This document shows, one piece after another, positions 12,459-39,384 of a stretch of 42,776 nt of DNA; position 1 is the first letter of the stretch, and each line of letters opens with the position of its first letter. The position numbers and the translations under genes are program-made. The stretch is from Chloroflexota bacterium. Lineage in GTDB: Bacteria; Chloroflexota; Anaerolineae; UBA4142. The notes under the pieces were generated by a model that saw only the letters and a program-made list of their open reading frames with translations, did no database searches and was not told where the DNA came from. The DNA lies in NCBI GenBank assembly GCA_016223105.1, contig JACRPR010000066.1:1-42776 (forward strand), read 5' to 3'.

Positions 12459-12486
12459 TTGACCCACGCGCGGAAACGCGTATAAT
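12459..12486 (+). promoter_or_regulatory. sigma70-like promoter for the rightward GT-C/GNAT/DegT/flavoprotein run
   Basis: TTGACC (12459-12464) and a perfect TATAAT (12481-12486) are separated by 16 nt. Expected start of transcription is near 12493, about 29 nt before ATG 12522. With the leftward promoter it occupies the 175-nt divergent intergenic region, where nothing else was seen. Confidence 0.7.
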
Positions 12487-12521
12487 GTCCGCGCATTGGT
12501 CCATTGGATAGGATTCGTGAA

Positions 12522-17001: not shown

Positions 17002-17094
17002 GGAATTAGTGGGGTAGCATAGCCCCTTGTGGGCGTTGAAATGGAAAAGTACGCGCACAAGGCGCTATGCTACGCGACTAACCCCACTAATTCC
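17002..17094. repeat. long imperfect inverted repeat
   Basis: GGAATTAGTGGGGT (17002-17015) pairs with ACCCCACTAATTCC (17081-17094), and AGCATAG...CCTTGTG pairs with CACAAGG...CTATGCT, apart from one mismatch and a 7-nt insertion on the right arm. Weaker pairing extends outwards. The element is about 93 bp with no coding content of its own, resembling a MITE-size palindrome. It lies between the convergent flavoprotein and LamG genes. Confidence 0.7.
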
Positions 17095-18884: not shown

Positions 18885-18960
18885 GGGTCTTGTGCCTCTT
18901 CGCACGCGTCAAAAATTACACGGAAATTTTGGAGACTGTAGCATGTTCGCCGATTTTCGA

Positions 18961-19020
18961 CACAGATTTCACAGATTACACAGATTTAATTTTTAATCCG
19001 TGAAATCTGTGAAATCTGTG
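18961..19020. repeat. inverted cluster of CACAGATTT repeats
   Basis: CACAGATTTCACAGATTACA and its continuation (18961-18989) face AATCCGTGAAATCTGTG...AAATCTGTG (18996-19020) as an inverted repeat, each arm being made of tandem 8-9-bp units. It lies in the 229-nt gap between the two LamG genes. I saw no convincing gene or promoter in the rest of that gap. Confidence 0.75.
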
Positions 19021-19113
19021 GTGAGAACATGCGAGTTCGATAACATGGTTACACTGTCAAATTTCGTGGGGACATTTTATACCGGTTCGCGCTTTTGTCA
19101 AAGCGTTTTGAAA

Positions 19114-20754: not shown

Positions 20755-20807
20755 CAAAGAATCCCTCTCCTTTGAGAAACCAACGTGCGAACGGACAACC
20801 CACTTGT

Positions 20808-20835
20808 ATTCTATGCGCCGCGCGAAAAATGTCAA
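20808..20835 (-). promoter_or_regulatory. sigma70-like promoter for the LamG gene
   Basis: On the minus strand, TTGACA (20830-20835) and TAGAAT (20808-20813) are separated by 16 nt, about 50 nt upstream of ATG 20754. Confidence 0.55.
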
Positions 20836-23074: not shown

Positions 23075-24945
23075 TTCACCATCAACTCGCCGAGCGTAAA
23101 GACATTGCCGCGCGGCGTTTCCAACGCGAAAAATCCAACATCGTCTTGCACGATTTCTTCCGGCGCCCAGCCAATCGTCGGACGCAAGCCGCTCGCCGGT
23201 TCGGCATCGCGCTGAACGAGCTTGTTATTCTGCGCGTCGATCAACCGGAATGAAATCGTGAATCGCGCGTTCACCGGTTGTGGCGCGCGCCACAAGAGCG
23301 TGAGCAAAACAAAATCACCCGCGCGCGGATTTGCCGGTGTTAACGCGTAACCCAGCAATTCGATTGCGCGCCCTTCCTGATCCGAAAACATCGCGCGCAC
23401 ATCTTTGATCGGCGATCCGCAATCCGCAATCTGCAATCCGCAATTTACGACGCGCCACAACTCGCCGACGCGCGTCAATCGAAATTCATCCGCGAGCGCG
23501 CCGAGCGTTTCGGTTTCGCTCGGATGAAACGTGAGATACACCGGTCGCCCCGCGCGCACCGCGCGCTCAATGTCGGCTTGGCGCGAATCGTATGCGGCGA
23601 GATCGAGATACAATTTTTGCGTGATGACTTTCCAGCGTTCGAGATCGCGCCGCGCACCGTCCACATATTGCGCGTATTCGAGCGGCGTCAACGCTTCCCA
23701 GGGTCCGACGATCAGCGCGTTTTGCTCCAACGGTTGCGCGAGATTTTCTTGCCACAGCGTCGCAATTTCCGTGCGCCGACTCCAATCGTTGCGCGCGTAA
23801 TTTTGTTGGAGCAAAAAACCGGTTGCCGCGAGAAAAATCGCGATGAACGCAATTTGGCTTGCGCGATATCGCGCGAGCCAATCCCAGATGACGGCGAGAC
23901 CCATCGCGGCGAGAAATAAAAATGTGATGTACGACGGGATGAAAAATTTTTCGACATCAATCGTAAAAAAGAAAACGCAAAACGCGCTGTTCGCGAGATT
24001 CGCCAACGCGATAAAGAGCAAGGTTTCGCGCGCGGGCAAATCGCGCGGGAAATAGCGCGGCGCGCGATTTAGCGCGAGCGCGGCGATGCCGATTAACCCA
24101 GTGATGATCGCAAGCGGCGTGAATTGTTCGATCAACAACGGAACGTAGAGATCTGTTACGCGACTAGTGATCCAATCAAGCGGACCGTACTTCATCCACC
24201 GACCCGCGTTGCCGCCGAGAATCATCTCGCCAAAATCTTTCAGATGAAACTCGACGCCGACATCGCTCTCGCCGCGCCAAAACACATAGCCGTACAAAAT
24301 CAGCGGCGCGAGAAACGCGAACGCGAGCGAAATGAGTCGGCGCGGGTGAAAAATCGCGAGACCTTCAAAACGTAAAACGTAAAACGCGATGGCAGGCACG
24401 AACCAGATCATTGTGCGATGATTCGTGAGCGACAAGCCGAACGCAAAGACCGGGACGAGCAAATCAATTTTCCCGGCGCGCCACAAGAAAAATAAAAACG
24501 GGATGATGACGACGAAAAACGCGTTGAGCGTGTACGGACGCGGGATGATCGCCTGCGACCACTCGACGCGTGACGCCGCGAGCAAGAGCGCGCTCACGAG
24601 CGCAACCCAGCGATTGCCGGTGAAAAATTTTAGGAAAACAAAAATCGCCGCGACGGACATTGCGCCCCAGAATGCCGCGAACAAATTTGCGCGCGTCGCC
24701 ATCGTCCCAATCGGCACAAGGATCGTAAACAATTTGCCAAGCAAAAAGAAAAGCGGATAGCCGGTGTGACTCACGCCGAGCCGCGCGATGTTTGTTTGAA
24801 ATTCGCCTTCGTCGCCGTCGAGCAAACCGGGCGCGGCAGTGCGCGCGTAGAGCGCGAGGGACGCGAGGAAGAGCGCGAGCGCGAGGAGCGTGTCGTAAGT
24901 GGTAAGTGGCAAGTGGTAAGTTTTGATGCGCGAAAATATTTTCAT
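23071..24945 (-). CDS. DUF2723-type membrane protein (GT-C-like)
   Basis: 624-residue protein with the DUF2723 hallmark in its first third: RTAAPGLLDGDEGEFQTNIA, GVSHTGYPLFFLLGKLF, ASRVEWSQAIIPRPYTLNAF. Helices continue to about residue 385. The C-terminal part (about 510-624) is a shortened version of the beta-sandwich module found in the neighbours (NARFTISFRLIDAQ, LRPTIGWAPEEIVQDDV). Three heptamer tandem repeats lie inside the frame: 24895-24922 at the N-terminus (TYHLPLTTY), 24367-24387 in a helix (FYVLRFEG) and 23415-23442 before the C-terminal module (NCGLQIADCG). ATG 24945 overlaps the upstream TGA. DUF2723 proteins are proposed protein O-mannosyltransferase relatives; activity here is inferred. 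Confidence 0.82.
   Translation of the reverse strand: MKIFSRIKTYHLPLTTYDTLLALALFLASLALYARTAAPGLLDGDEGEFQTNIARLGVSHTGYPLFFLLGKLFTILVPIGTMATRANLFAAFWGAMSVAAIFVFLKFFTGNRWVALVSALLLAASRVEWSQAIIPRPYTLNAFFVVIIPFLFFLWRAGKIDLLVPVFAFGLSLTNHRTMIWFVPAIAFYVLRFEGLAIFHPRRLISLAFAFLAPLILYGYVFWRGESDVGVEFHLKDFGEMILGGNAGRWMKYGPLDWITSRVTDLYVPLLIEQFTPLAIITGLIGIAALALNRAPRYFPRDLPARETLLFIALANLANSAFCVFFFTIDVEKFFIPSYITFLFLAAMGLAVIWDWLARYRASQIAFIAIFLAATGFLLQQNYARNDWSRRTEIATLWQENLAQPLEQNALIVGPWEALTPLEYAQYVDGARRDLERWKVITQKLYLDLAAYDSRQADIERAVRAGRPVYLTFHPSETETLGALADEFRLTRVGELWRVVNCGLQIADCGSPIKDVRAMFSDQEGRAIELLGYALTPANPRAGDFVLLTLLWRAPQPVNARFTISFRLIDAQNNKLVQRDAEPASGLRPTIGWAPEEIVQDDVGFFALETPRGNVFTLGELMVK
23415..23442. repeat. 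heptamer tandem repeat, ATCCGCA x4
   Basis: Four consecutive 7-bp units (ATCCGCA, ATCCGCA, ATCTGCA, ATCCGCA) inside the DUF2723 gene, encoding NCGLQIADCG on the minus strand at the hinge before the C-terminal module. Confidence 0.9.
24367..24387. repeat. heptamer tandem repeat, AAAACGT x3
   Basis: AAAACGT, AAAACGT, AAAACGC inside a membrane segment of the DUF2723 gene, encoding FYVLRF. The same heptamer recurs at 32561-32582, 32749-32776 and 40645-40658. Confidence 0.85.
24895..24922. repeat. heptamer tandem repeat, GTAAGTG x4
   Basis: GTAAGTG, GTAAGTG, GCAAGTG, GTAAGTT at the very start of the DUF2723 gene, encoding YHLPLTTY. The same heptamer recurs at 33331-33351. Confidence 0.9.
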
Positions 24946-26798
24946 TCGGGAGCAATCCTAATTTGTCCGATGAAGGGCGTGATGATTTCGCCGCGCGGAT
25001 CGCGCGCGATCAAATCGCGTTTGTCGCGGCGATTGTAGAGCGACACAAGAATTTGCGCGGTCGAATTTTCAGGCGCAATCGGCAACCAGTACACATCGCG
25101 AATGATTTGCCCAGCGCGCATCACGCGCGTCGGCAACATGCCGTGACCGGGATAACTGTCGCGCGTGCCGATCACGCGTTGATGCGCGTCCAGCACGCGG
25201 ATCGCAATCGTATAATCTTCGTCCATCGCCGCGAGCGCTTGCCAATAGAGCGTCAATTCGCGCGCGTCGCCGGGATAAATCGCGCGCGCCGAAATCGTGT
25301 AACCAAGTAATTTTATTTTGCCCTCGTACTCAATATCCACGCGATTTGGAATTTGCGCGAGGTCGCTTTCGTGTAACGTTTGCGGATACGCATACGCGGG
25401 ACGGATGAGTGTGAATGGCGCGCTTGCCGAGATCGCGAACAGAAAAATGACAAATGACAAATGTGCAAATGACAAAATGCGCGCCGCGATTTTCCAACTT
25501 CCAACTTCTAACTTCCAATTTCCAATTTGCGCGAGTCCGAATACGACCAGCACCGCAATCGCCGGGAGCGCGGGAAAGAGCAAGCGTCCGTGCGGGGCTT
25601 GCGTTACCATCATCCAGCGCACGAGCGCGGCGAGGACGATGATGAACCACAGCGCGGGAATCAGGATTTGTGATTTGTGATTTATGATTTCTGATTTCTG
25701 CTTTGAGCGAACGCGTGATGCAACGAAACTCCTAAATCCTAAATCATAAATCATAAATTTGATCAGTCCGATCAAACTTGCCAGCACCGCAACCGCAATG
25801 ATCGAATAAATCGCCGGTTGCGCGCGCACATTGCCCCAACCGAAACCGACCCAAAAAGTTTCCCACACTTCGGCGAGTTGCGCGATCAATTGATCGAACG
25901 TGAGCGGCGTTTCGCGCGCGAAAAAAATGCGTGTCATCAGTTCGGTGCCGGTTAGTTCGCCGTACAAAACCAGGTTGCGCGCGTACCACCAACCCGCGAC
26001 AAGTGAAAAGGTAAAAGTGAAAAGTGAAAAGTTTAAAATGATGTTGCGAAAAAAATTGGGTTGCTGGCGCGTGTGCCACATTTGCCAGCCCAGCGCAACC
26101 AGCGCGAGTGCAAACAATCCCGCGCCGCTCACTTTTGAAATCGCGGCGAGTCCGCACGCGATGCCGAGCGCAAGCACATTGCGCGTCGTCGGTTGCGCGC
26201 GCATCATCCGCGCGATCAGCCACAGCGCGAACGCGCTCGTCGCGGCGATGGTCGAATCGTTGCTGACCGCGCCGCTGATGAAAATAAATTGCGGCACAAA
26301 CGCGACGACCGCGCTTGCGAGCACGGCGAGAAATGGATCGCGCAAAATTTCGCGCGCAAATAAAAAAGTAAACAGCACCGCGAGCGCGCCGATCAAAACC
26401 GCAAGCCAGCGCGCGATCCGAATCGCCAAGACCGCGCCGCGATACGGAAAACTTTCGAGCGCTGTGTGAATGAATAAATTTTTATTGTCGTTCACGATCC
26501 CAGGAACGGTGTAACCGTAATGCGGATTTTCCCAAACGATGCCGGGAAAATCGGACGTGTCAATCCAAAACGTCAACGCCGCGCCGAGCAAATAATACAA
26601 CGGCGGCTGACTCCCCTCTTGCCGCGCGAAATGATCCGGTGGTTCTGCTTGCACCGGCAAGCCGCGCCCGGTCGCGATGTGTTGAATCACCGCGAAATGT
26701 TCACGCTCGTCCGGCGTTTCAAAGAGCGGCGTGGTGATGCTGTAAAAAATTCCGAGCGCGCCGAACGCGACCAGGATCAATATAAATGCGCGGTACAT
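24942..26798 (-). CDS. DUF2142/GT-C-like membrane protein with one C-terminal beta-sandwich module
   Basis: 618-residue protein. After the first helix comes the loop PLFETPDEREHFAVIQHIAT with acidic residues, then EGSQPPLYYLLGA, as in DUF2142/PMT_2-type proteins. About ten helices follow, with VPQFIFISGAVSNDSTIAAT and SKVSGAGLFALALVALGW in the middle. The C-terminal module (about 485-618; DYTIAIRVLDAHQRVIGTRD, LPTRVMRAGQIIRDV) is the common one of the operon. Five heptamer-repeat tracts interrupt the frame without breaking it (26001-26028, 25731-25758, 25665-25699, 25492-25526, 25447-25476), giving odd peptides such as FSLFTFTFSL and NWKLEVGSWK. Its start overlaps the upstream stop by one base (TAATG) and its stop overlaps the next ATG (ATGA). 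Confidence 0.8.
   Translation of the reverse strand: MYRAFILILVAFGALGIFYSITTPLFETPDEREHFAVIQHIATGRGLPVQAEPPDHFARQEGSQPPLYYLLGAALTFWIDTSDFPGIVWENPHYGYTVPGIVNDNKNLFIHTALESFPYRGAVLAIRIARWLAVLIGALAVLFTFLFAREILRDPFLAVLASAVVAFVPQFIFISGAVSNDSTIAATSAFALWLIARMMRAQPTTRNVLALGIACGLAAISKVSGAGLFALALVALGWQMWHTRQQPNFFRNIILNFSLFTFTFSLVAGWWYARNLVLYGELTGTELMTRIFFARETPLTFDQLIAQLAEVWETFWVGFGWGNVRAQPAIYSIIAVAVLASLIGLIKFMIYDLGFRSFVASRVRSKQKSEIINHKSQILIPALWFIIVLAALVRWMMVTQAPHGRLLFPALPAIAVLVVFGLAQIGNWKLEVGSWKIAARILSFAHLSFVIFLFAISASAPFTLIRPAYAYPQTLHESDLAQIPNRVDIEYEGKIKLLGYTISARAIYPGDARELTLYWQALAAMDEDYTIAIRVLDAHQRVIGTRDSYPGHGMLPTRVMRAGQIIRDVYWLPIAPENSTAQILVSLYNRRDKRDLIARDPRGEIITPFIGQIRIAPE
25447..25526. repeat. two adjacent heptamer repeat tracts
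   Basis: 25447-25476 holds 7-8-bp ATGACAA-type units, and 25492-25526 holds five exact 7-bp units (TTCCAAC, TTCCAAC, TTCTAAC, TTCCAAT, TTCCAAT). Both are inside the DUF2142-like gene and encode HLSFVIF and NWKLEVGSWK respectively. Confidence 0.9.
25665..25758. repeat. two heptamer repeat tracts in inverted relation
   Basis: 25665-25699 is five GATTTGT/GATTTAT/GATTTCT units; 25731-25758 is CCTAAAT x2 then CATAAAT x2. The cores are roughly complementary (ATTTATG against CATAAAT). They lie within the DUF2142-like gene around a cytoplasmic-looking loop and encode MIYDLGFRSF and KSEIINHKSQI. Confidence 0.9.
26001..26028. repeat. heptamer tandem repeat, AAGTGAA x4
   Basis: AAGTGAA, AAGGTAA, AAGTGAA, AAGTGAA within a membrane helix of the DUF2142-like gene; encodes FSLFTFTFSL, which keeps the segment hydrophobic. 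Confidence 0.88.
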
Positions 26799-29218
26799 TA
26801 TGGCGCAACCTCCAGCGCAGTATCGAGCAAGACAAAATCGGTTCCATCGCTCAAGGTTAAGCGCGCGCCCGATTGCAAATCGTACCAGCCGATGCGAAGC
26901 GTGTATTTGCCCGGCGCGTGCGGAACGTTTATGCTAAATTCATCGCGAATGATTTCGCCCGCGTCCCAGATCGAGGTTGGATAATTGCCGGCTTGCGGTT
27001 GATGATCGGCTTGCGCGACGATTTGCCCGTTCGCATCGAGCAAATGCACGAACACAGTATAATCGCGATCCATTTCCGCGCGCGCGCGCCAGTACAATTT
27101 GAGCGTCGCCGCTTCGCCCACGCGCGCGTTCGGCAAATCGTACCCTTCGAGCGCGATGCGCGCGTCGAACGTCGCGACCTGGGATCGGCTCGGCGCGAAT
27201 GATGCAGTTGCGCGCGGCGCGATTTTGATCGCGCCGACGATCACGCGATTGTCCGTCGCGTCAATCCGCTCCAACCGATTTTGCGCGAGATCGTACATTC
27301 CAATTTCGAGTGTATATTTTCCGGCGCGCGTCCGCGCGGGCACGGGGATGCGATGATGCGTTGGAATAATTTCGTCTGGCTTCCACAGATACGTCGGATA
27401 CGCGTTGAGCGCGGGAATCAAATCGGCAATCGCGACTGTGTCATCATTCACGTCGAGCGCGTGCGCGAAAATCGTGTAATCGGTCAAGGTTTTATTCGCG
27501 ATGCGCCAATACAACGAAAGCAATATCATTTCGCCCGGTTGAATTCGCGATGCACCGATGGACGCGCCGACGAGTTCGATGCCATCCGCAAAACGCGCGC
27601 GCGGCGCGGTTGCCGCGCTTTCAAATCGAAAAAAATTTTGATCGACCGCGTACGCATGCGCGGCAATCTCGCCGCGCATTTCGCGAATGATGTGATCCGG
27701 CGCGCGCGCGCGCAACTCGTTTTCGATTGCGCGCATCGGCGGCAAAAGATACGCGACGCCGTTCGTGATCAGAACGTATGCGGCTGGATCGTGCACGTAC
27801 AATTTACCTTCCGAACGTCCGTGATCCAAAAATGCCGGAAGCACGACCGATGCGCGCGCCGGTTGCGCTTCACGCACGAGCGCGCCGTTCGCGTCGAGCG
27901 CGGATTGCAAACGCGGCGCGCGCGCGCCGGTGAGATAGCGCACCGGACTGCGCGCAAATTCGTTGAGCGGCAAATAGACCGGCTCGGTTTGAAGATTGAT
28001 CCATTCGGCTTCGGCGACCTCGACGCGGCTCACGTTGAAATTGTCGTACTCGGCATTGCGCGGCGAATCCGCGATGCGCGCGATAAAATACGCGTGCAGT
28101 GAACTCGCGACATTCAACACCACGAGCGTCGCAACGATTGTCGCGACAATCGTTCGCGGGCGCGCGTGAAAAAAATCAATCAGCGCACTCGCGCCCGCGC
28201 CGACAAAGAAAAACGCCGGTGGAAAAATTCCGATCAGCCGGACTTTGTTGAGCGTCGGCTCATCGGCGGCGAGTAGATCGGGCAGAAACATCACGCCGAT
28301 CATCACCGCCGCCCACACCCATTCGATTTTGCGCCAGCGCGCGAGACACACGATCACGCCAATCACGAACAGCGCGAACAGCGCGGGATCGAACAATGGA
28401 ATTCCGAACGTGCCATCGCGCCATTCGATGCCAAACATTTTCGCGTACGCGATCATGCGCGGAAAAATCACGTCGAGCAGATCGGCGCGTTGCCACACGT
28501 TGACCTGGTTGACACGCGCGAGCGCGACCTGCGGGTACACGATTTGAAACGCGAGACGCGGCAACGCGATCACGAACGCGATTGTCCACAGCGCGAGCAT
28601 CGGTTTGAAATGCGCGCGCCAGCGCGCGCGATCAAACACGAGCGCGAATATCCACAGCGCGAACAATCCGACCGGCACAAAAATCGCGGCGAGGTAGGTG
28701 TAAATGCTCAAACCCAGGACGATGCCGCCGAGAATGAACGCGCGCCAACTCCCGGTGCGCCAACCGCGCGCGAAAAAATAAAGCGCGGCGAGTTCGAACA
28801 GCGTAACAAAAATAAATCGGATGCCATAGCGCGATAGGTTGAACAATTCGAGCGAACCGGCGAGCGCGAGCGCGGCGATGAACGCGACGCGCTGATCGCG
28901 CGTAAATTCGTACGCGACGCCGAACAACGCGGCGACGCTCAGCACACCGGCAAGCGCGGTGACCAGGCGCAACGCGAACGCACTCGGTCCGAACAACCCA
29001 ACCGTGAGCGTTTGCAAATAAAGAATCAACGGTTCGGGCGCGCCCATCGCGTTGACGAAAAACGGACGCGCGCCGTCGTAGATCATTCCCAGGATCGTCA
29101 TTCCATTCGACGCGGCGTCGTACTTGAGACCGGGCGGCAATATGTCGAGCGCGTACAATCGCGCGAACGCGGCGATGGCGATGACGAACGCGAATACGAG
29201 CCAGGCGCGTTTACTCAA
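26798..29218 (-). CDS. GT39/PMT_2-like membrane glycosyltransferase with two beta-sandwich modules
   Basis: 806-residue protein. The N-terminal loop reads LPPGLKYDAASNGMTILGM. GAPEPLILYLQTLTVGLFGP and NLSRYGIRFIFVTLFELAAL follow, matching PMT_2-type enzymes, with about eleven helices to residue 380. A soluble stretch (400-530) comes before two tandem beta-sandwich modules, about 535-670 (DYTIFAHALDVNDD, YPTYLWKPDEIIP, AGKYTLEIGMYD) and 679-806 (DYTVFVHLLDANGQIVAQAD, YPTSIWDAGEIIRDE, PGKYTLRIGWYD). The catalytic-loop position where the next gene has HDE reads YDA here, so one acidic residue is missing; activity may be reduced or the specificity changed. It overlaps both neighbours in the operon (1 and 8 nt). 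Confidence 0.83.
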   Translation of the reverse strand: MSKRAWLVFAFVIAIAAFARLYALDILPPGLKYDAASNGMTILGMIYDGARPFFVNAMGAPEPLILYLQTLTVGLFGPSAFALRLVTALAGVLSVAALFGVAYEFTRDQRVAFIAALALAGSLELFNLSRYGIRFIFVTLFELAALYFFARGWRTGSWRAFILGGIVLGLSIYTYLAAIFVPVGLFALWIFALVFDRARWRAHFKPMLALWTIAFVIALPRLAFQIVYPQVALARVNQVNVWQRADLLDVIFPRMIAYAKMFGIEWRDGTFGIPLFDPALFALFVIGVIVCLARWRKIEWVWAAVMIGVMFLPDLLAADEPTLNKVRLIGIFPPAFFFVGAGASALIDFFHARPRTIVATIVATLVVLNVASSLHAYFIARIADSPRNAEYDNFNVSRVEVAEAEWINLQTEPVYLPLNEFARSPVRYLTGARAPRLQSALDANGALVREAQPARASVVLPAFLDHGRSEGKLYVHDPAAYVLITNGVAYLLPPMRAIENELRARAPDHIIREMRGEIAAHAYAVDQNFFRFESAATAPRARFADGIELVGASIGASRIQPGEMILLSLYWRIANKTLTDYTIFAHALDVNDDTVAIADLIPALNAYPTYLWKPDEIIPTHHRIPVPARTRAGKYTLEIGMYDLAQNRLERIDATDNRVIVGAIKIAPRATASFAPSRSQVATFDARIALEGYDLPNARVGEAATLKLYWRARAEMDRDYTVFVHLLDANGQIVAQADHQPQAGNYPTSIWDAGEIIRDEFSINVPHAPGKYTLRIGWYDLQSGARLTLSDGTDFVLLDTALEVAP

Positions 29219-31625
29219 CGTTCACCTCGCTCAACACAATCGAATCGCCGTGCGCTGTCGGCAAACGTTCGCCGGTCTGCGCGTCGTACCAACCGATGAT
29301 GACGCGCAATTTGCCGCGCGCGTCCGCCGGAAACGCGAGCGTGATTTCATCCGGCACAAATTCATTCGCGTCCCAGATTAAAGTTGGATACGCGCCGCCG
29401 CGCGGGGGCGCATCGCTTTGCGCGATGATGCGGTTCGCGTCGTCAAGCGCGTGCACGAAGAGCGTGTAATCGCGCGTGATAAATTTTTCGCTTTGCCACA
29501 ACAGAATCAATTTCAAATCCTCGCCGCGTTTTATTTTTGGCGCGGCATCAAATCCGATCAGCGTGATCGCATCGCCAAAACGCGCGTGGATCAATCGCGA
29601 TGGCATTGGCGGTGTGGCGCGCAAACCGATTTTCAATGGCGCGATTAAAATGCGATCATCCTCCGCGCGTTTGCCGTTGATCTCAACCGGCACGCGCGCG
29701 TTTTGCGCGGGCGAAAATAATCCAACTTCAAGCATATATTTTCCCGGCGGCAAGCCATCGTTTATTTTGAGATCATACCGCGCGGGCAAGCTTTGATCGC
29801 GCGGCAACAGCGCGAGCGGATATTCAAAAAATAATTCCGTGTCCGCGCCACCGACGACGTTGCCGGACGCGTCAAGGATGTGCGCGAACATTTTCATGCT
29901 GGATTGAATCGGCGCGCGATTCATCCAAAATAATCCAAGCGGAAACGATTGCCCCGGCGCGATGTCGCGCGAATAGGATGCGCCGATCAAGATCATTCGA
30001 TCCGCGAATCGCGCGTCAAGCGATTGCGCGGACGGCGCATCGAACAGCATGGCTTTGCTCACGCGCGCAAACGCGCCAATCGGCTTGCCGAATTGATCGC
30101 GTAAAGTTTGCGCGTCCGCAAGTGCTGGAATTAGCGCGCGCGGATTTAGCCACAACGCTTCGCGTCCACGCAAAAGAATCGGCGCGCCGTTTGCGAGCGT
30201 CGGCGGAATCAGCGCGAGCATTGGTTCGTGTTCGATCTGTGCGCGATCAGGAAATGGCAAAGCGCGGCTTGAAGCGTAACGCGACCGAATCAAAAATTGA
30301 ATCGTCGGATGGGCGTATGTTTCAAACGGGACGATGACATTTTCATCGCGCGTGTTGAGCCACTGCGCGAGTTGCACGAGTTCGCCTTGGTAATCAGAGT
30401 ACGCGCGCGGATGATTTGCCCACACGAAAAAATAATCGCGCGCGCTCCACGCGCCACTGCCGATCAACGTGATCAACGCGCCGAATGCGCGCGCGCGTTG
30501 CGGCATCCAGCGCGAGGCAATCGCTTGCCAGCCCCACGCGACGAACACAAACATCGCCGGGAGCGCGCCAATCGCGCGTTGTGTGTCGGGCGCGTCTTGC
30601 GACAAAATCGTCGGCGCGAGCAAGAGCGCGAACCAGATCAAGGCGAAGCGTGCGCGCGGCTCGCGCCAGCGCCACAACGCGGCGAGCAAACCGATCGCGA
30701 ATGGAATGAGCGTGAACCAATCCAATACCGGGCGATACGCGATACCGTGTCGCCATTCCGCGTCGCCGCGCGCGAAAAACATTTGCGCGACGCGCCACGC
30801 GTTCGCAAGCAAATCGTTTGCGCCGCCCGCGAGCGCGACATCACTCACGCGAAACAAAAGCGCGCTGGGATGCGTCGCGAAATAAAAACCGAGTGGCGCA
30901 AAGACGACGAGCGCGGCAATCACCAAGACGGTCGGCGCGATCAGAAATCGCGAATTGAAACGCGCGGAGATTTCTCGCTTCGCTCGAAATGACATTCCGA
31001 GATCGGGGAATTCTCGCTTCGCTCGAAATGACAAGGCGAGTTCGGTGATCCAAAACAGCGCGAGCACAATCGGCAAAAAGCGCGCGGACAGGTACGTGTA
31101 CAAACTCGCGCCGAGCACCGCGCCGGCAAAAATATGATCGCGCAATTTTTGCGTGCGCCGCGCGCGCCAGAAAAAATAAAATGCGAGCGTCGCAAAAAGC
31201 GGAAGCGCAATCGTGCGCCAACCCATTCGACTAAAATTGAGATGCCAGTACGACGTCGCCAAGCCCGCCGCGCCGATCAGCGCGATCCAAGTCGCGTGCT
31301 TGCCGCGCGTGAGCGCGCGCACGAGCGCGAAAAACGCGGCGATGGTCAGGATGCCGACGAACGCCGCCGGAATTCGCAGTGCCCACGGCGTTGCGCCGAA
31401 CAGTGCAATCGAAAGCGCGTGTGCGTAAATAAAAAACGGTTCGCGTCCGCCGTTGCCCTCGAAAAAAATCGGCAAGCCCGCGCCGTGCAAAATGCCGAGC
31501 GCATCGAGTCCGCTAAACGCTTCGTCATGATACAAGCCGGGCGGAATCGTATCAAGCGACGCGACGCGCAACGCGGTCGCGAGCAATAAAATCGCGATGA
31601 GCGCGCACCAGATTTGCCGCGTCAT
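29211..31625 (-). CDS. GT39/PMT_2-like membrane glycosyltransferase with two beta-sandwich modules
   Basis: 804-residue paralogue of the downstream gene. The N-terminal loop LPPGLYHDEAFSGLDALGIL has the classic DE pair. EGNGGREPFFIYAHALSIAL and NFSRMGWRTIALPLFATLAF follow, then helices to about residue 400. Two C-terminal modules: about 550-675 (MKMFAHILDASGNVVGGAD, PPGKYMLEVGLF) and 680-804 (DYTLFVHALDDANRIIAQSD, YPTLIWDANEFVPDE, RVIIGWYDAQTGERLP). Between helices the frame carries a duplicated FRAKRE block (30972-31033) derived from a dispersed repeat. It overlaps its neighbours by 8 and 4 nt. Expected to use a polyprenyl-phosphate sugar outside the membrane. Confidence 0.85.
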   Translation of the reverse strand: MTRQIWCALIAILLLATALRVASLDTIPPGLYHDEAFSGLDALGILHGAGLPIFFEGNGGREPFFIYAHALSIALFGATPWALRIPAAFVGILTIAAFFALVRALTRGKHATWIALIGAAGLATSYWHLNFSRMGWRTIALPLFATLAFYFFWRARRTQKLRDHIFAGAVLGASLYTYLSARFLPIVLALFWITELALSFRAKREFPDLGMSFRAKREISARFNSRFLIAPTVLVIAALVVFAPLGFYFATHPSALLFRVSDVALAGGANDLLANAWRVAQMFFARGDAEWRHGIAYRPVLDWFTLIPFAIGLLAALWRWREPRARFALIWFALLLAPTILSQDAPDTQRAIGALPAMFVFVAWGWQAIASRWMPQRARAFGALITLIGSGAWSARDYFFVWANHPRAYSDYQGELVQLAQWLNTRDENVIVPFETYAHPTIQFLIRSRYASSRALPFPDRAQIEHEPMLALIPPTLANGAPILLRGREALWLNPRALIPALADAQTLRDQFGKPIGAFARVSKAMLFDAPSAQSLDARFADRMILIGASYSRDIAPGQSFPLGLFWMNRAPIQSSMKMFAHILDASGNVVGGADTELFFEYPLALLPRDQSLPARYDLKINDGLPPGKYMLEVGLFSPAQNARVPVEINGKRAEDDRILIAPLKIGLRATPPMPSRLIHARFGDAITLIGFDAAPKIKRGEDLKLILLWQSEKFITRDYTLFVHALDDANRIIAQSDAPPRGGAYPTLIWDANEFVPDEITLAFPADARGKLRVIIGWYDAQTGERLPTAHGDSIVLSEVNVE
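30972..31033. repeat. direct repeat encoding FRAKRE, inside a coding region
   Basis: A 23-bp unit beginning TTCTCGCTTCGCTCGAAAT occurs at 30972-30994 and again at 31011-31033. The 39-bp period is 13 codons, so the reading frame is preserved. On the minus strand both copies encode SFRAKRE, a peptide typical of a widely dispersed intergenic repeat that has been read into a gene. Confidence 0.85.
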
Positions 31626-33835
31626 TTGTTCGTCCCCGCGAGATTCAATTCAAATGAATCGCCGTTCGGCGTCGGCAAACGTTCGCCGGTGTCCGCGCGA
31701 TACAAACCGATAATCACACGCGGGCTAAGCGGCAAAATAAATTCATCGCGAATGATTTCGCCCGCGCTCCAAATCGAGGTCGGATAATTTCCGGCTTGCG
31801 GTTGCTGATCCACTTGCCCGATCATTTTTCCGTTCGCGTCGAGCGCGTGCGCGAACATTGTGTAATCTTGTTCGATTGTAGTTCGCGCGCGCCAATACAA
31901 AATAATCCGCGTGTGATCCTGGGTCGTCTCGACGGCGTAATCGGCAAGTTCAATCGCGTCGCCGAATGGCGCGCCCACGCGCGGCGCAATTGTAATCGCG
32001 TGGCGCGGCGCGATTTTGATCGCGTCCACAAGCGCGCGATCATCGCCGGTTTCAATCACGCTCAAGCGCGCGCCATTTTTTTCGACCGGATACAAACCGA
32101 TTTCGAGCGCGTACTTGCCCGGCGTCGCGTTCGGCAAAATCGGAATCGTTACGCCATCGCGCAACGCGTCGCCCGGTTTCCAATACAACGTCGGAAACGC
32201 GCCGCGCGCCGGAATCACATCCGCGCCGCCCGCGCTCACGTCGTTTTTGCCGATGACGTGAACGAACACGCGGTACGATTCGCGCATCGGCGCGCGCGCG
32301 CGCCAATACAAGGTAACGCGCAAATTTTCGCCTGGCTTGACGACGCGCGATTCAAGATCGTACCCAAGCAATTCGATCTGATCCGCAAAATTAAATTGCG
32401 CGTGATTCGTGATCCGCGCGAGATCGTTGGCGGAGGCGCGCGCGGGGCGCGCGTAGGCGGGGAGCGTGTACGCGAAGGGGACGAAGAGCGCAAGAATGAA
32501 AAATGAGCAAATGACAAATGAAGGAATGACAAATGAAAAATGGGCAAATGACAAATGCGTAAAACGTAAAACGTAAAACATAATTTCCTGGAATACGAGC
32601 GCGAGAATGAGCGCGATGACGGAAATTGCCGGGAAGAGATAGCGACCTTGATCCGCGCCGGTCGTCATTGTGATAAAGCGGAGTTGCGCGATAAAGATGA
32701 AGGCGAGCCAGGCGGTGAGGAAGAAAAGTGGAATGCGTAAGACGTGATGCGTAAAACGTAAAACGTAAAACGTAAAACCGAGCAACGCGACGAATGTGAA
32801 CAGCGCGAGCGCGATTAAAAGTGCGGGCGAAAAATCGCCGGGCGTGGGTCCGCCCCAAAACGTTTGCCACATCCAGGGCAGTGAAATCTGAAATAATTCC
32901 GGCGGCGTGAGTTCGCCGGAACGCGGAAAGAGCGCGGAGACCTGCACGAGTTTTAGCGCGAGCGGATCGCCGTACACCATTTGATTGCGCGCAAACCACC
33001 AGCCCGCGACGAATAAAATGATCGCGAGAAAAATGCCGGTCGTGGAAATGAATAAACGCAGGTTGCGCGCGCGAAATGCGAGATACGCGAAAACCAGGAT
33101 CGCCAATGGCACGAGTCCGAGCGCGGTTGTTTTGGTGAGCAGGGCAAGCGCGAGCAACACGCCGATCAGCGCGGACGATTTGAGATCGCACGCGGCGCGC
33201 GCGGCGAGCCAGCGCGTCCACATCAACAACACGAGCGATGACAACGCGGCAAGTGACGCGTCGTTCGAGACGAGCGCGGACGCGAAGAGAAAACTGGGAT
33301 TGAAGGCGACGAACGCGGCGGCGAGTAGTGGTAAGTGGTAAGTGGTAAGTGGTAATTCGTGATGCGATTCTAAAATGGTCGCGGTGATAAAAAAGGTTGC
33401 GGCGACAGTGATCGCGCTGAAGAAAATTGAAAGCAGGCGCGCGAGGTGAACCGCGAGCGGCGTGCGCGTGTACGGAAAATTTTGCGAATCGAAATGATAA
33501 TAAATGTTGCGCCCGCAACACGCGGGATCGCCGACGAAGGTCGCGGCATAGTTGCGCGTCAGGTGTTGTTCATGATCCGATGTGTCAAGCGGCGCGATGA
33601 CGAGCGCGACGAGTGAATAGTACAGCGGCGGATGCCAGCCCTGATGCCCGGCGATGCCGCCGCCCGGCTCGAACAATTGCACCGGCAACGCGCGGTTGTC
33701 CGCGATAAATTTCGCGAAACGAAAATGATCGTCCTCGTCGGGTCCCTCGAAAATCGGAATAATGATCGAGTAGAACAACGCGACGAGCGCAAAGACGATC
33801 AGCAAAAGGGCAAGCGCCCGCGGAAATTTTTTCAT
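31622..33835 (-). CDS. DUF2142/GT-C-like membrane protein with two beta-sandwich modules
   Basis: 737-residue protein, related to the gene at 24942-26798. The loop IPIFEGPDEDDHFRFAKFIA has acidic residues, followed by GGGIAGHQGWHPPLYYSLVAL and NPSFLFASALVSNDASLAAL. Helices continue to about residue 455. Two modules follow: about 480-610 (YRVFVHVIGKNDVSAGGAD, FPTLYWKPGDALRD, PGKYALEIGLYP) and 615-737 (DYTMFAHALDANGKMIGQVD, YPTSIWSAGEIIRDE, RVIIGLYRADTGERLP). Three heptamer tracts lie in frame within or beside helices (33331-33351, 32749-32776, 32495-32582), encoding LPLTTYHLPL, FYVLRFTHHV and HLSFAHFSFV-type peptides. It overlaps its neighbours by 4 nt on each side. Confidence 0.82.
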   Translation of the reverse strand: MKKFPRALALLLIVFALVALFYSIIIPIFEGPDEDDHFRFAKFIADNRALPVQLFEPGGGIAGHQGWHPPLYYSLVALVIAPLDTSDHEQHLTRNYAATFVGDPACCGRNIYYHFDSQNFPYTRTPLAVHLARLLSIFFSAITVAATFFITATILESHHELPLTTYHLPLLAAAFVAFNPSFLFASALVSNDASLAALSSLVLLMWTRWLAARAACDLKSSALIGVLLALALLTKTTALGLVPLAILVFAYLAFRARNLRLFISTTGIFLAIILFVAGWWFARNQMVYGDPLALKLVQVSALFPRSGELTPPELFQISLPWMWQTFWGGPTPGDFSPALLIALALFTFVALLGFTFYVLRFTHHVLRIPLFFLTAWLAFIFIAQLRFITMTTGADQGRYLFPAISVIALILALVFQEIMFYVLRFTHLSFAHFSFVIPSFVICSFFILALFVPFAYTLPAYARPARASANDLARITNHAQFNFADQIELLGYDLESRVVKPGENLRVTLYWRARAPMRESYRVFVHVIGKNDVSAGGADVIPARGAFPTLYWKPGDALRDGVTIPILPNATPGKYALEIGLYPVEKNGARLSVIETGDDRALVDAIKIAPRHAITIAPRVGAPFGDAIELADYAVETTQDHTRIILYWRARTTIEQDYTMFAHALDANGKMIGQVDQQPQAGNYPTSIWSAGEIIRDEFILPLSPRVIIGLYRADTGERLPTPNGDSFELNLAGTNK
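32495..32582. repeat. long mixed heptamer repeat tract
   Basis: About twelve 7-8-bp units: nine AATGACA-type followed by three AAAACGT-type. The tract encodes a hydrophobic stretch beginning MFYVLRFTHLSF within a predicted helix. It is the longest such tract seen in the window. Confidence 0.9.
32749..32776. repeat. heptamer tandem repeat, ACGTAAA x4
   Basis: GCGTAAA followed by three ACGTAAA units, preceded by a degenerate 14-bp unit from 32735; encodes FTFYVLRFTHHVLRI inside the DUF2142-like gene. Confidence 0.88.
33331..33351. repeat. heptamer tandem repeat, GTAAGTG x3
   Basis: Three exact GTAAGTG units inside the DUF2142-like gene, encoding LPLTTYHLPL; same heptamer as at 24895-24922. 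Confidence 0.88.
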
Positions 33836-36750
33836 CGCGCGGACACCTCGATCTCGAATGTAATCGCGCGATTTGGCAATTCATTTCCTTGCGCGTCGAA
33901 CGCGGGGAGACGTTCGCCGGAAATTGGATCGTACATTCCAACCCGGATCGTGTATTTGCCGGGCGCGACATTCAACGCGTGAGCGTCCGGCACGCGCTCG
34001 CCCGCGTCCCAGATGCGCGTCGGGTAACGATTGCCGCGCGGCGCGCCATCGGTCTGCGCGACGAGTTGACCGCGCGCGTCAACGATGTGAACAAAGACGT
34101 GATAATTTTTTTCGGGACGCGCGCGCGCGTGCCAATGCAAAATCAATTCGCGTGATTGCAGATCGTATCCCAGGAATTGAATCGCGTCGCCGAGTTGCGC
34201 GCGCAGAGCGGTGCGCGGATTCGCGTTCGGCGCGTTGATCGGCACGATCACCTCGCCCAAATCCACCACCGCGTCCGGCGATTCGCCATCGGCGGTAACG
34301 ACCGGCAAGCGTTCGAGATTTTGCGCGCGATACAAACCGATGAGCAACCGATAAATGCCGGGCGACGCGTCGCGGGCAAGCGCGAGCGCGCGTTGATCGG
34401 AAACGATTCGACCGGGCGACCAAAGCATCGTTGGAAAAAACATATCTTGCGTCATTCCATCGCGTTGCGCGATCACGTTGCCATCCAAATCTACGAGTTG
34501 CGCCAAGACGGTGAAATCTTCAAACAGATCGCGCGTCGCGCGCCAATCCATTTTGATCGAAAGCGAATTACCCGCGTTCACGCGCGCCGGAAAAATCGCG
34601 TCCATCAATTCAATCGCGTCGCCGATGCGCGCGCGCGGATTCATCGCGATGGATTGACGCGGTGCGGATTGGATCAATTCGACAAACGCGACCTGAACAA
34701 AACGCGGCGACGCGCCGTAGCCGACTTGCAATTGATATTTTCCGGCGGGCATTTCACTCGCGAGCGGCAAATCGAAATGATCCTCGACAATTTCGTTCGG
34801 CACCCACACTTCGGGAAATCCGGTCGCATAGCGCGACGATTGCGCGCGCGTCGCCCACATGCGCCCGGCGTCATCCACCAAACGCCAGGTGAATGGCGCG
34901 TCCGCGATTTGTTGACGCGCAAACCACACAACTTGGAGATCAAGCGAATCGGATTGCGCGCGCCACGCGGTTGATGCGAGCGTCGCGTTTTCGATCCGCA
35001 AACCGATCAAGCGCAACGCGGGCGACACTTCGATTTGCGTGGATTGGATCGCGCGGCGCGGCGCGGTGAGCGCGACGAATGTTGATGGCAAAACCAGGAC
35101 GAGCACACTCGCGATCAAAATCAGTGCGATGCGCGTGCGCGCGAATCGAATGATCGCGCCAACCAGGATCAATGCGGCAAGCCCGGAAATAATCGCGCCG
35201 ATTTGACGCGCGAGTGTATCGCCAAACCAAATCACAACACGATGCGTGCCCGGCGGCAAATCCAGTGTGATCAATCCGAGCGGCGTGCTGGGAAATAGAT
35301 CGAGCGGCGCGCCGTCGAGCGTGGCTTGCCAGCCGGGAAAATAAAACGCGCGCAGTAAAATCGTTTCGGAATGTGACGACGATACGCGCAACGCGATGCG
35401 TTGTGGATCGAACGATTCGACCGCGATGCTCGGCGCGGGAAACGCGGAAGTTACATCGAGTTTCGGCGCGAGCGTTTGCACGGTCAACGGCAAATACTCG
35501 GCGAACGATCCGAAACCCAAGCCACGCGTGTTCGCTTCAAAACGCGCGATTTGTCCGATGGTCAGATCGCCACGCGGGTTGTCGAGTTTGCGCGCCGCGA
35601 GATTCGCGAGTCCGTTCCACGCGAGAATCGCGATCACGATCAACGCCATCGCGCGGCGCGATGCGAGCGCGCCGGTAATGATCGCGATGCCCAAGCCGAT
35701 CAAAACCTGGATGCGCCACGCGAATTGAATCGTTTTGAGCAAGGGCGCGTTCAACCAGAAATCGCGCGCGAAATCGAGCGAGAGCGCGATGCCGATCAAC
35801 GCGGTCGCGCCAAAAATCGCGAGCAAACCGCGATGCGCGCGCCACGCGAAAAAAATCGCGAGTAGTGCAATCGCGAGTGTGATCGGCGCGAACGGGTACG
35901 GTTGATCCACGTATTGAAACGGAACGCTCGCTTGAAGCGCGTGCGCGGGCGCGAGAAAACTGCCGACGAGCAAATCGGTGAGCGCTTTGTTCGCGCGACT
36001 GATCGCGACGAGCGGCAATTCGATCAGCATCGGCAACCAATAAAATGCCGCAAGTCCCGCGCCGATGATGCCCGCGCCAATCGCGCGCGCGAGCGCGCGC
36101 CGTTTCTCGCTAACGCGCGCGAGTTGCCACGCGAGAAACGCGATTAAAAATGGCGCGCTCAACAACGCGGTCAAGTTATGCGCGAGCAGAATCGCCGCGC
36201 TGAAAAATGCAAGCGCGACCATCGCGCTAACATCGCGCTGGAGAATGACGCGGCGGATCGCCCACGCGAACCAGGGCAAGAGCGCGGCGGCAAGCGCTTC
36301 GGCAAGCGCGCCGCGAATGTACACATCGAGCAAAAAGTACGGAAAGAAAATATACGCCGCCGCGACAAGCAAGCCGGCAAAATCGGAATCGAAGAGATCG
36401 CGACCAAGCACGAACGCGCCAAGCGCGGCGATGGCGACGATCAACGCGAGCGTTAATTGAAGCGCAACAGGCAAATCGAATCCGATGATGTGAAAAGTTT
36501 CCGCGAGGTAATACGCCAATGGCGGATAGAAATTGAAAATCGGATAACCGTAGCCGGACGCAAAATCGGATGCCCAGCGCGGATACACAATGCCTTGCCG
36601 AATCATTCGATCCAATTCGTCAATGCGAAAGAGATGCAAAAATCCGTCGTCGAGAAAAAGAAATCGCGACGGCGGAAGCAAGGGCGAAATTCCTAGCGCG
36701 ATCAGCGCGACCAGGACGAGGCGCGTGATCCAACGAGATTGATCGGTCAT
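33832..36750 (-). CDS. large membrane protein of the 6-pyruvoyl-tetrahydropterin-synthase-related type with three beta-sandwich modules
   Basis: 972-residue protein, first gene of the seven-gene operon. ATG 36750 (MTDQSRW) is preferred over the in-frame codon at 36762. The N-terminal loop FLDDGFLHLFRIDELDRMIR and YPRWASDFASGYGYPIFNFYPPLAYY match the membrane family loosely named PTPS-related, which is GT-C-like despite its name. Helices extend to about residue 385. A domain with FYFPGWQATLDGAPLDLF and PPGTHRVVIWF recalls the YfhO C-terminus, and a further helix follows near 540. Three tandem modules complete the protein (about 575-705, 710-840, 845-972; FTVLAQLVDLDGNVIAQRD, YHVFVHIVDARGQLVAQTD, PGKYTIRVGMYD). 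It overlaps the next gene by 4 nt. I saw no clear promoter upstream. Confidence 0.82.
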   Translation of the reverse strand: MTDQSRWITRLVLVALIALGISPLLPPSRFLFLDDGFLHLFRIDELDRMIRQGIVYPRWASDFASGYGYPIFNFYPPLAYYLAETFHIIGFDLPVALQLTLALIVAIAALGAFVLGRDLFDSDFAGLLVAAAYIFFPYFLLDVYIRGALAEALAAALLPWFAWAIRRVILQRDVSAMVALAFFSAAILLAHNLTALLSAPFLIAFLAWQLARVSEKRRALARAIGAGIIGAGLAAFYWLPMLIELPLVAISRANKALTDLLVGSFLAPAHALQASVPFQYVDQPYPFAPITLAIALLAIFFAWRAHRGLLAIFGATALIGIALSLDFARDFWLNAPLLKTIQFAWRIQVLIGLGIAIITGALASRRAMALIVIAILAWNGLANLAARKLDNPRGDLTIGQIARFEANTRGLGFGSFAEYLPLTVQTLAPKLDVTSAFPAPSIAVESFDPQRIALRVSSSHSETILLRAFYFPGWQATLDGAPLDLFPSTPLGLITLDLPPGTHRVVIWFGDTLARQIGAIISGLAALILVGAIIRFARTRIALILIASVLVLVLPSTFVALTAPRRAIQSTQIEVSPALRLIGLRIENATLASTAWRAQSDSLDLQVVWFARQQIADAPFTWRLVDDAGRMWATRAQSSRYATGFPEVWVPNEIVEDHFDLPLASEMPAGKYQLQVGYGASPRFVQVAFVELIQSAPRQSIAMNPRARIGDAIELMDAIFPARVNAGNSLSIKMDWRATRDLFEDFTVLAQLVDLDGNVIAQRDGMTQDMFFPTMLWSPGRIVSDQRALALARDASPGIYRLLIGLYRAQNLERLPVVTADGESPDAVVDLGEVIVPINAPNANPRTALRAQLGDAIQFLGYDLQSRELILHWHARARPEKNYHVFVHIVDARGQLVAQTDGAPRGNRYPTRIWDAGERVPDAHALNVAPGKYTIRVGMYDPISGERLPAFDAQGNELPNRAITFEIEVSAR

Positions 36751-36774
36751 AAAAAAAATCAAAACCGTTCAAAT

Positions 36775-36918: not shown

Positions 36919-37650
36919 CTACACATTTGGTTCTTTTTGCAAATCGGCGCGCGCAACGAGTGGCGGCGCGCTACCGAGCAAACCGAAACGTTTGCGAAAG
37001 AGAAAAAACAAATTGTAAAATCCGTCGCGCCAGATTCGCAATTTGCTAACGCCGTGCCGTTCTTTGTAATAGACCGGCAGTTCGATGCCGCGAATGATTT
37101 TCTTTTTCGACATCGCTTCGAGTTTGATCTCTTCCGAAAACGCCATTCCGTCGCTCGTGAGCCGCAGGTGTTCGAGAATCGCGCGTTTGAACACCCACAT
37201 GCCCGATTGCGAATCGCGCACGCGAAACCAAAATAAAATGAGGATGAAAAAATTTAGCACGTCGTTGCCGAACACGCGCAACCAATTACTCGGTTTGTCT
37301 TTATGCCCGGTGCGATCACAAGTGATGAAATCGAAATTTTCATCAATCATCACGTCGAGCAGGATCGGAATAAAATTGCGCGGGTACGTGCCGTCGGCGT
37401 CCATCGTTACGATGATGTCGCCGGTCGCATTCCGCAAGCCGGTTTTGTACGCCGCGCCGTATCCTTGTTTCGATTCGCGAATCACGCGCGCGCCAAAACT
37501 GCGCGCGACCTCCGCGGTGCGATCGGTCGAGTTGTTGTCCACCGCGATCACTTCGTCAATGAGCGCGGGCAGATCGCGATAGACCTCGGGCAAGCCGTAT
37601 TCTTCGTTAAAGCACGGCATCACGAGCGAGATGCGATGATTTTTGTACAT
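36919..37650 (-). CDS. family 2 glycosyltransferase, polyprenyl-phosphate-sugar synthase-like
   Basis: 243-residue GT2 with the GT-A fold: ISLVMPCFNEEYGLPEVYRD, IDEVIAVDNNSTDRTAEVA, GYGAAYKTGLRNATGDIIVT, and the metal-binding DADGTYP. The acceptor region DSQSGMWVFKRAILE and the C-terminal GIELPVYYKERHGVSKLRIWRDG match dolichol-phosphate mannose synthase-like enzymes. It would load a sugar onto undecaprenyl phosphate on the cytoplasmic face, giving the lipid-linked donor that GT-C enzymes use. ATG 37650 shares one base with the upstream stop (TAATG), pointing to coupling with the thioredoxin-like gene. A terminator follows. Confidence 0.87.
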   Translation of the reverse strand: MYKNHRISLVMPCFNEEYGLPEVYRDLPALIDEVIAVDNNSTDRTAEVARSFGARVIRESKQGYGAAYKTGLRNATGDIIVTMDADGTYPRNFIPILLDVMIDENFDFITCDRTGHKDKPSNWLRVFGNDVLNFFILILFWFRVRDSQSGMWVFKRAILEHLRLTSDGMAFSEEIKLEAMSKKKIIRGIELPVYYKERHGVSKLRIWRDGFYNLFFLFRKRFGLLGSAPPLVARADLQKEPNV

Positions 37651-38150
37651 TACGGTTTCGCTACCAACTTGAGTTGTTGCTCCAATTCTTCGCCGGTCAC
37701 AAAGCCGCGTTTTTTCCAAATCACTTTGCCGGTCCCATCCAACAGAAACATATCCGGTTGAACCGTGTAACCGAGTTTACGTTTCGCATCCTGGGTCGCG
37801 GGGTTGTCAATATCGAGATAGACAAAATCTATACAACCACCATACTTGGCTTCGAGCCCGTGCACGACGGGTTTGATCGCGTTGCACGTCGTTCACCAAA
37901 ACGCGAAAAACTCGACGAGTTTCGGTTTCGCGGACGCTTCGAGTTTTTTCGGATCGTCGGAGCGAAATTGATCCGGCGGCGCGGCGTTCGTCGTCGTGCA
38001 CGATGCCGCATTCGATGCGGCGGCTTGGGTTGGCGCGGGCGCAACCGATGGTTGAACATTCGATTGAGTTGGCGCGCTAGTCGGCGCGGCAGTCGGCGCG
38101 CACGCGACGAGAGTCATCACCACAAGCACGAACAAAATTTTTGATTTCAT
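37650..38150 (-). CDS. thioredoxin-fold lipoprotein with in-frame UGA at the first active-site Cys (candidate selenoprotein)
   Basis: Read through TGA 37893-37895, this is a 166-residue exported thioredoxin-like protein. ATG 38150 follows GGAAAAATTG. A signal peptide with lipobox LVAC (Cys17) precedes a long Pro/Thr/Ala linker. The domain follows: KPKLVEFFAFW-UGA-TTCNAIKPVV, then CIDFVYLDIDNPATQDAKRK, VQPDMFLLDGTGKVIWKKRG and EELEQQLKL. The UGA (codon 86) stands exactly where WCxxC proteins have their first Cys, and Cys89 is kept. About 80 codons after the UGA are intact and typical, including the proline preceding the strand (VQPD). Either UGA encodes selenocysteine or a TGC-to-TGA mutation has killed the gene. 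Short stems are possible just after the UGA (37864-37869 with 37887-37892, or 37859-37864 with 37883-37888), but they are not a convincing SECIS by eye. Confidence 0.75.
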
Positions 38151-38164: not shown

Positions 38165-38192
38165 CACGCTTTACGTTTCACGTCTTACGTTT
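38165..38192. repeat. 14-bp tandem repeat at the radical SAM 3' end
   Basis: CACGCTTTACGTTT and CACGTCTTACGTTT in tandem, a doubled form of the ACGTAAA heptamer family. It overlaps the final codons and the TAA (38185-38187) of the radical SAM gene, so the repeat supplies its stop codon. Confidence 0.8.
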
Positions 38193-39384
38193 CAACGCGA
38201 TAACTTTCGACCGCGCGCGGCGCAGAGTTCATCACTTCAGGCGAAAGACCGTGACGCAATTGCGCCCATTTCAAACTCGCCCACTCTTTGAGAATGACCG
38301 GGTACATCAACGGGTTGAACAAAATGTTGACGGTCATAAAACATTCGTAGGTGCAATAGCATTTCGTTTTCGAAATCCACTCGCGCACGTCGTCGGCTTT
38401 TTGCGATTCCCAGATTTTTTTGAAATTGTAATCGAAATCGCGCACGTTGCCGAGAATTTTTTCTTCGAGCAATTCACACGCCAGCACGTCGCCGTTCGCG
38501 TACATCGCGCCGCCGAGCGAACCGGCATAACACGGAATCACAAAGCGGCGTTCCTTCACCATCTTGGTAATCATCTTGGGGCGAATGATGCGCTTGGCGT
38601 TGATGAAATCGCCGAAGGGCAATTTGTAATAGCCGGACAATTCGCGCGATTTGTTATCCGCTTCGAGCCGATAGTGAAAGTTCATATAGTTGTCAATGTC
38701 GAATTGATTCGCCTTCGGATCAATCGGCGGCGTGAATTTCGCCGCGGGGTCTTTCGGTCCACCGCGCAGAAGCAGAGTGAACACGGTGTTGACGCCGACG
38801 TACGTGCGGAGGTAATCGTAAATTTCATCGAGCCGATCGTGATTGTACGCGCTGACCGCGATTTGAATGCACGCGGAAAAACTGGGATAGTGTTTTTCGA
38901 GCACGCGCAATTCGCGATAGGTACGAATCGCGCGGTCGAACAAACCTTTAAAGCCGCGAAACTTGTCGTGATCTTCTTCCACGCCGTCAATCGAAATGTC
39001 AATGTGCAAATCCATCTCGGGGCACGCGTCGAGCATTTCGCGCGCGCCGTCCACAACGCGACTCGTGAGCGAGCCGTTCGTCGGGATGCCGACGTTCGGC
39101 GCGTGATTGTTCTTGTGAAAAATCTTGACGATTTCCGGTAAATCTTTTCGCAAGAACGGTTCGCCGCCGGTCGGCGTGAAGAAAATCATATCGTCCATCG
39201 TGCGACTAACTTTTTCGATTTCGTCAATCGTCAGTTCGCCGGTGTGCCGTTCGTGCGAACCGAGCAAACAGTGCCCACAGCGCGCGTTGCAATTTTTCGT
39301 GATGAAGAGGACAAAGTATAACGGCGACGCGCCTTTTTTGTACAAGATGCGCGGCGCGAATTTCATATAGTTCATCAGAGACAT
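38185..39384 (-). CDS. radical SAM protein with SPASM-like C-terminal cysteines
   Basis: 399-residue radical SAM enzyme. The cluster motif CNARCGHC places Cys at 32, 36 and 39, with FFTPTGGEPFLRKDL as the GGE (SAM-binding) motif and DLHIDISIDGVEEDHDKFRG downstream. The C-terminus has further Cys (IPCYAGSLGGAMYANGDVLACE, then KTKCYCTYECF), which would bind auxiliary iron-sulfur clusters as in SPASM enzymes. The last 40 residues are hydrophobic or basic and may contact the membrane. Substrate unknown: it could be a peptide, as for many SPASM proteins, but no precursor peptide gene was found beside it. It lies 34 nt upstream of the thioredoxin-like gene in the same orientation and may depend on its reducing power. 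Confidence 0.9.
   Translation of the reverse strand: MSLMNYMKFAPRILYKKGASPLYFVLFITKNCNARCGHCLLGSHERHTGELTIDEIEKVSRTMDDMIFFTPTGGEPFLRKDLPEIVKIFHKNNHAPNVGIPTNGSLTSRVVDGAREMLDACPEMDLHIDISIDGVEEDHDKFRGFKGLFDRAIRTYRELRVLEKHYPSFSACIQIAVSAYNHDRLDEIYDYLRTYVGVNTVFTLLLRGGPKDPAAKFTPPIDPKANQFDIDNYMNFHYRLEADNKSRELSGYYKLPFGDFINAKRIIRPKMITKMVKERRFVIPCYAGSLGGAMYANGDVLACELLEEKILGNVRDFDYNFKKIWESQKADDVREWISKTKCYCTYECFMTVNILFNPLMYPVILKEWASLKWAQLRHGLSPEVMNSAPRAVESYRVET

Follow-up and report, generated by a model that had tools for sequence, protein, structure and literature searches.

Thioredoxin (Trx) selenoproteins with a PF00085 domain and a UxxC active site are listed among the experimentally verified families (PMC9312934, PMC13188914). 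A second UxxC family, the thiol:disulfide interchange protein selenoproteins with a PF13098 domain, has been predicted (PMC9312934). For the phylum Chloroflexota, a survey from 2006 listed three selenoproteins in three families (PMC1794560).

We analyzed a window of 42,776 nucleotides, which is one contig (C24) of a 5.5 Mb Chloroflexota assembly (250 contigs, 93% complete, 2% contamination). A gene on its minus strand, a strand not given in the original prediction, runs from an ATG (38150-38148) through an in-frame TGA to a TAA (37652-37650). For the coordinates of all features see Table 1. The read-through product, with TGA translated as U, starts with MKSKILFVLVVMTLVACAPT and ends in KPKLVEFFAFWUTTCNAIKPVVHGLEAKYGGCIDFVYLDIDNPATQDAKRKLGYTVQPDMFLLDGTGKVIWKKRGFVTGEELEQQLKLVAKP before the TAA. 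U86 occupies the place of the first Cys in the thioredoxin WCxxC motif (FFAFW-U-TTC-N), the second motif Cys is retained as C89, and between the TGA and the TAA stand 80 sense codons. The translation thus confirms the original prediction of a TGA at the first Cys of WCxxC with the second Cys kept and about 80 codons in frame. A plus-strand reading of the 37650-38150 region gave an unrelated frame and was dropped.

Table 1. Features of the selenoprotein locus and its direct neighbors.
Feature	Positions	Strand	Evidence
Selenoprotein gene (almost certainly), 166-aa thioredoxin-like lipoprotein, WUTTC active site	37650..38150	minus	read-through translation, PF00085, AlphaFold, TGA orthologues
In-frame TGA, residue 86 (U86)	37893..37895	minus	aligned codon in homologous loci
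SECIS-like hairpin CCCGU-CGUGC-ACGGG; loop 37866-37862 with invariant GU	37857..37871	minus	RNAalifold and pair counts
Codon of lipobox Cys17 (L-V-A-C17), predicted lipid anchor after signal peptide	38100..38102	minus	sequence
Radical SAM protein, directly upstream	38185..39384	minus	PF04055, E 2.8e-15
Family 2 glycosyltransferase, directly downstream	36919..37650	minus	PF00535, E 1.7e-30

Protein architecture and gene neighborhood

The Pfam thioredoxin domain PF00085 matches residues 69–160 on both sides of the TGA (E 8.7e-11, 42.2 bits against a cut-off of 23.5). The PF13098 match stays below its cut-off (22.1 vs 27 bits), so that PF00085 is the better fit. With the thioredoxin equivalog TIGR01068 of NCBIfam the protein scores 42.8 bits, under the curated cut-off of 96.8; it would thus act like a thioredoxin but does not classify as TrxA. 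In the AlphaFold model, strands and helices follow each other as in thioredoxin; pLDDT is about 90 across much of the domain, drops around the active site and is low at the N-terminus. A search against PDB structures placed thioredoxins on top, with TM scores up to 0.82 by target length. The lipobox was recognized by eye and its C17 is invariant in alignment A1. From this signal the protein is predicted to be exported and lipidated. Outside the UxxC motif, the seven closest sequences of A1 share two more invariant Cys codons, at 37833-37835 (C106) and 37998-38000 (C51) on the minus strand, which may form a second redox pair or a disulfide.

The window protein and the Trx selenoprotein have the PF00085 domain and a UxxC motif with Sec in first position in common. 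In contrast to the latter, the window protein carries a predicted N-terminal lipoprotein signal and a low-complexity linker, its family shows WUTTC/TUGTC-type motifs where thioredoxin has WCGPC, and it falls under the NCBIfam thioredoxin cut-off. The PF13098 selenoprotein is likewise a UxxC protein with a thioredoxin fold of the thiol:disulfide interchange type, but its Pfam domain is found here only at a sub-cut-off level. The Cys-form homologue L034 from Chloroflexi bacterium Centralia_MAG_208 is likewise a putative lipoprotein (WCTTC, 39% identity over the matched part); here TGC takes the place of TGA, the SECIS stem is missing, and a membrane protein of CcdA/DsbD type is encoded close by.

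A gap of 34 nt separates the end of the radical SAM gene (38185) from the selenoprotein ATG, and the glycosyltransferase ATG overlaps the selenoprotein TAA by one base (TAATG). For neither neighbor does an NCBIfam model reach its cut-off. In all seven members of the order that we examined by tblastn, a radical SAM homologue (86–95% identity) lies directly upstream of the best match. The glycosyltransferase (70–90% identity) follows directly downstream in six of them; in the seventh (L040) the locus is cut short. Both neighbors are absent from the paralogues L021, L022 and L043, and the loci that we read elsewhere in the class, outside the order, have different flanking genes. A functional coupling to the neighbors, as raised in the original prediction, is thus supported by the conserved gene order within the order, but not by these more distant loci.

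Elsewhere in the window, a long run of large proteins with multiple membrane spans and a repeated C-terminal domain (DYTxFAHLVDA-type) is encoded on the minus strand at 6007-12496 and 21182-36762. These are probably cell-surface glycosyltransferases. Two adjacent, similar large secreted proteins resembling LamG-type (concanavalin-like) domains are located at 17070-20835, also on the minus strand.

The most likely role of the protein is that of an extracytoplasmic, lipid-anchored selenol/disulfide oxidoreductase. Instead of a general reductase it could be an oxidant or isomerase of secreted proteins, or a partner of either neighbor, radical SAM protein or glycosyltransferase. This would be in line with the radical SAM – UxxC – GT2 arrangement conserved within the order, whereas the lack of this arrangement in the loci read elsewhere in the class speaks against it. 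So do, weakly, the surroundings of L034, the distant Cys homologue: besides another thioredoxin-like stretch they include a membrane protein that matches DsbD_TM marginally, and this CcdA/DsbD-type protein weakly suggests an electron supply (import) across the membrane. We regard the oxidant or partner role as unlikely, with perhaps a quarter of the weight. For the favored oxidoreductase role, export and lipidation, the redox direction (reductant rather than oxidant), the substrate and the electron donor are inferred.

Decoding of the in-frame UGA

The genome encodes selA (585.3 bits), selB (341.8 bits, full-length match) and selD (362.6 bits), all above cut-off, together with a tRNA-Sec with UCA anticodon (72.1 bits, above the gathering score; called tRNA-SeC (tca) by ARAGORN). 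All four components had been named as targets of a genome search, and all four were detected. In line with the original prediction, the larger ORFs of the window revealed no sel gene; the sel genes sit elsewhere in the genome. The selD gene (L018, position 1531) contains an in-frame TGA too: it lies in GUASK, which corresponds to the known UxxK Sec site, and a strong hairpin with a loop GU comes after it. SelD of this genome is probably a selenoprotein itself.

An alternative is that UGA specifies a different amino acid (Trp, Cys or Gly), through suppression or through a reassigned code as known for some bacteria. In the window, however, 9 of the 22 large ORFs chosen terminate at TGA, which is thus an ordinary stop, and the genetic code is not reassigned. 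The paralogue L022 makes the same point within one gene: one TGA is internal, a second one is its stop. The presence of tRNA-Sec, selA, selB and selD argues against such a reading as well, as does the confinement of the TGA to the Cys column with Cys as the substitute where selA is missing. Taken together, reading as an amino acid other than Sec is very improbable.

A hairpin follows the UGA inside the coding sequence at a distance of about 21–37 nt, its loop starting 26–27 nt past the UGA. We analyzed it in an alignment of 28 Sec sequences that is gap-free from the UGA onward. RNAalifold yielded one helix (columns 24–29 with 35–40), in which four of the six pairs change on both sides yet stay paired. 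Pair counts in the same sequences gave 97% paired cells and 14 double-change cells, compared to 3.3 after shuffling; sliding controls reached 48% paired cells or less. When all 59 Sec rows were counted, 97.2% of cells were paired (at most 87.3% in shuffles), the five inner pairs were complete in 56 rows and the loop GU (columns 31–32) was present in every row. In the 11 Cys rows only 50% of cells were paired and the stem was kept in one. Rfam had no match at the hairpin site.

The folding energy gave a weak signal: for single sequences against synonymous shuffles, z averaged about -0.6. In a 51-nt piece of the window gene the minimum-energy fold pairs partly differently, and an overlapping alternative competes with the hairpin. 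The evidence for a SECIS is therefore the comparison, i.e. the covariation, and not the energy. On this comparative basis we assign the hairpin as a bacterial SECIS element, and the proposed search for one after the UGA has yielded a covarying hairpin with an invariant loop GU.

The codon at the aligned column was read in 70 homologous loci, which comprise other genomes and paralogues, with some paralogous copies from genomes already counted: 59 have TGA, 10 TGC and one TGT, and the remaining motif and its flanks are conserved. Two paralogues with a TGA at the same place occur in the same genome. L021 (contig C48) is a lipoprotein with WUAAC and 51% identity; L022 (contig C100) has YULAC and an apparent membrane helix instead of the lipobox. 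The genome also encodes a conventional thioredoxin with a WCGPC motif, L023, which lacks a TGA. Between the window gene and its nearest relative, dN is 0.118 and dS 0.801 over the 79 codons after the TGA, and in other pairs dN is likewise well below dS. Since dN is much smaller than dS, the stretch past the TGA is evidently translated and useful. A double-Sec UxxU motif, with TGA at the second Cys codon as well, occurs in L040 (genome G018, WUPTU) and L093 (genome G492, WUSTU), which belong to separate families of the class.

The same TGA in dozens of independent genomes leaves a nonsense mutation at one site or a sequencing error without explanatory value. A change from TGC to TGA, the plain alternative considered in the original prediction, takes only one base at a single point and would make the gene a recent pseudogene; the recurrence of TGA at this codon across many genera and families refutes it, and with purifying selection past the TGA, a covarying hairpin and an intact downstream frame in the homologues we give it practically no weight. 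An assembly or sequencing error at 37893-37895 is equally far-fetched despite the fragmented source assembly (250 contigs), because two paralogues of the same genome and homologues from independent assemblies share the TGA.

We conclude that the in-frame TGA almost certainly encodes selenocysteine, as judged from comparative data. The candidate UxxC thioredoxin-like lipoprotein of the original prediction is borne out by the Sec machinery, the conserved TGA, the hairpin and a Cys form found for the most part in genomes lacking selA. Comparison of sequences and models firmly supports Sec coding, the conserved SECIS, the thioredoxin fold and the conserved gene order. With high confidence we propose a selenoprotein in which UGA codon 86 is read via SelB and the hairpin, and which is predicted to be a secreted, lipid-anchored protein, most likely an extracytoplasmic thiol-disulfide oxidoreductase. 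SelB with Sec-tRNA(UCA) would decode UGA codon 86, guided by the coding-sequence hairpin 22–37 nt downstream with its loop GU. The product would be a secreted, lipid-anchored thioredoxin-fold protein with the active site Trp-Sec-Thr-Thr-Cys. In the catalyzed reaction the selenolate of Sec86 would attack disulfides or oxidized thiols of the substrate, and Cys89 would resolve the resulting selenyl-sulfide.

Sec and Cys forms across the class

Within the family, the gene is present in 6 of 14 genomes with one TGA each, and within the order also in two genomes of a second family, again with TGA. A phylum sample of 400 genomes gave 18 matches at E 1e-22, all with TGA. Among 298 genomes of the class we found 54 matches at 1e-15; TGA is present in most and absent from some. 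The site is thus conserved as TGA across families of the class, and the allele of the window gene is not unique among its homologues, a point on which the original prediction could have failed. Protein scans retrieved a single distant Cys homologue from the genome contig collection and no homologue from viral contigs.

The form of the gene follows the presence of selA, which was detected in 53 of 54 TGA-form genomes and in two of eight Cys-form genomes (Fisher p about 3e-6; the test counts related genomes, so that p is optimistic and indicative). In the phylum sample all 18 carriers have selA, compared to 323 of the 400 genomes overall. In the family, selA occurs in all six carriers, and the four genomes without detected selA also lack the gene. 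The one TGA-form genome in which selA was not detected (G620, locus L068) has the SECIS stem; it is fragmented into 570 contigs, and the missing selA is probably due to an incomplete assembly.

Three Cys branches of family f4 (G612; G056 with G655; G368) are placed separately among Sec branches, and all of them lack selA. G612 (L078; UGC, no selA) and G302 (L096; UGA, selA) belong to the same genus and their proteins are sisters. The Cys form of G612 retains a stem-loop resembling the SECIS of G302, and a recent change from Sec to Cys is likely. Overall, the tree, built from few columns, needs at least 5–7 label changes. On balance we favor a class-wide Chloroflexota family of lipid-anchored, thioredoxin-like UxxC (sometimes UxxU) selenoproteins, of which the window protein would be the first described member; Sec would be the usual and perhaps ancestral form, with Cys regained repeatedly upon loss of the Sec machinery.

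Searching the text of PMC9312934 and PMC13188914 for Chloroflexi and lipoprotein did not reveal this lipoprotein family, and a literature search for Chloroflexota or Anaerolineae selenoproteins of the UxxC thioredoxin-like lipoprotein type returned nothing apparently relevant. Given this absence from both papers and the fact that the family passes no NCBIfam cut-off, we consider it new at the subfamily level. The UxxC Chloroflexota lipoproteins would form a new subfamily among the well-known thioredoxin-fold UxxC selenoproteins, and other databases may hold members. They probably represent a previously unlisted family of exported selenoproteins common to many bacteria of the class.

The family would be an example of extracytoplasmic selenium use in a phylum for which few selenoproteins are listed. 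Since standard annotation halts at UGA, many genomes of the class are likely to have its members truncated or overlooked. The conserved pair of neighbors, the radical SAM protein and the glycosyltransferase, is a concrete lead to the substrate. Finally, switching between Sec and Cys alongside the presence or absence of selA, for example in G302 compared to G612, provides a natural test of the benefit of selenocysteine.
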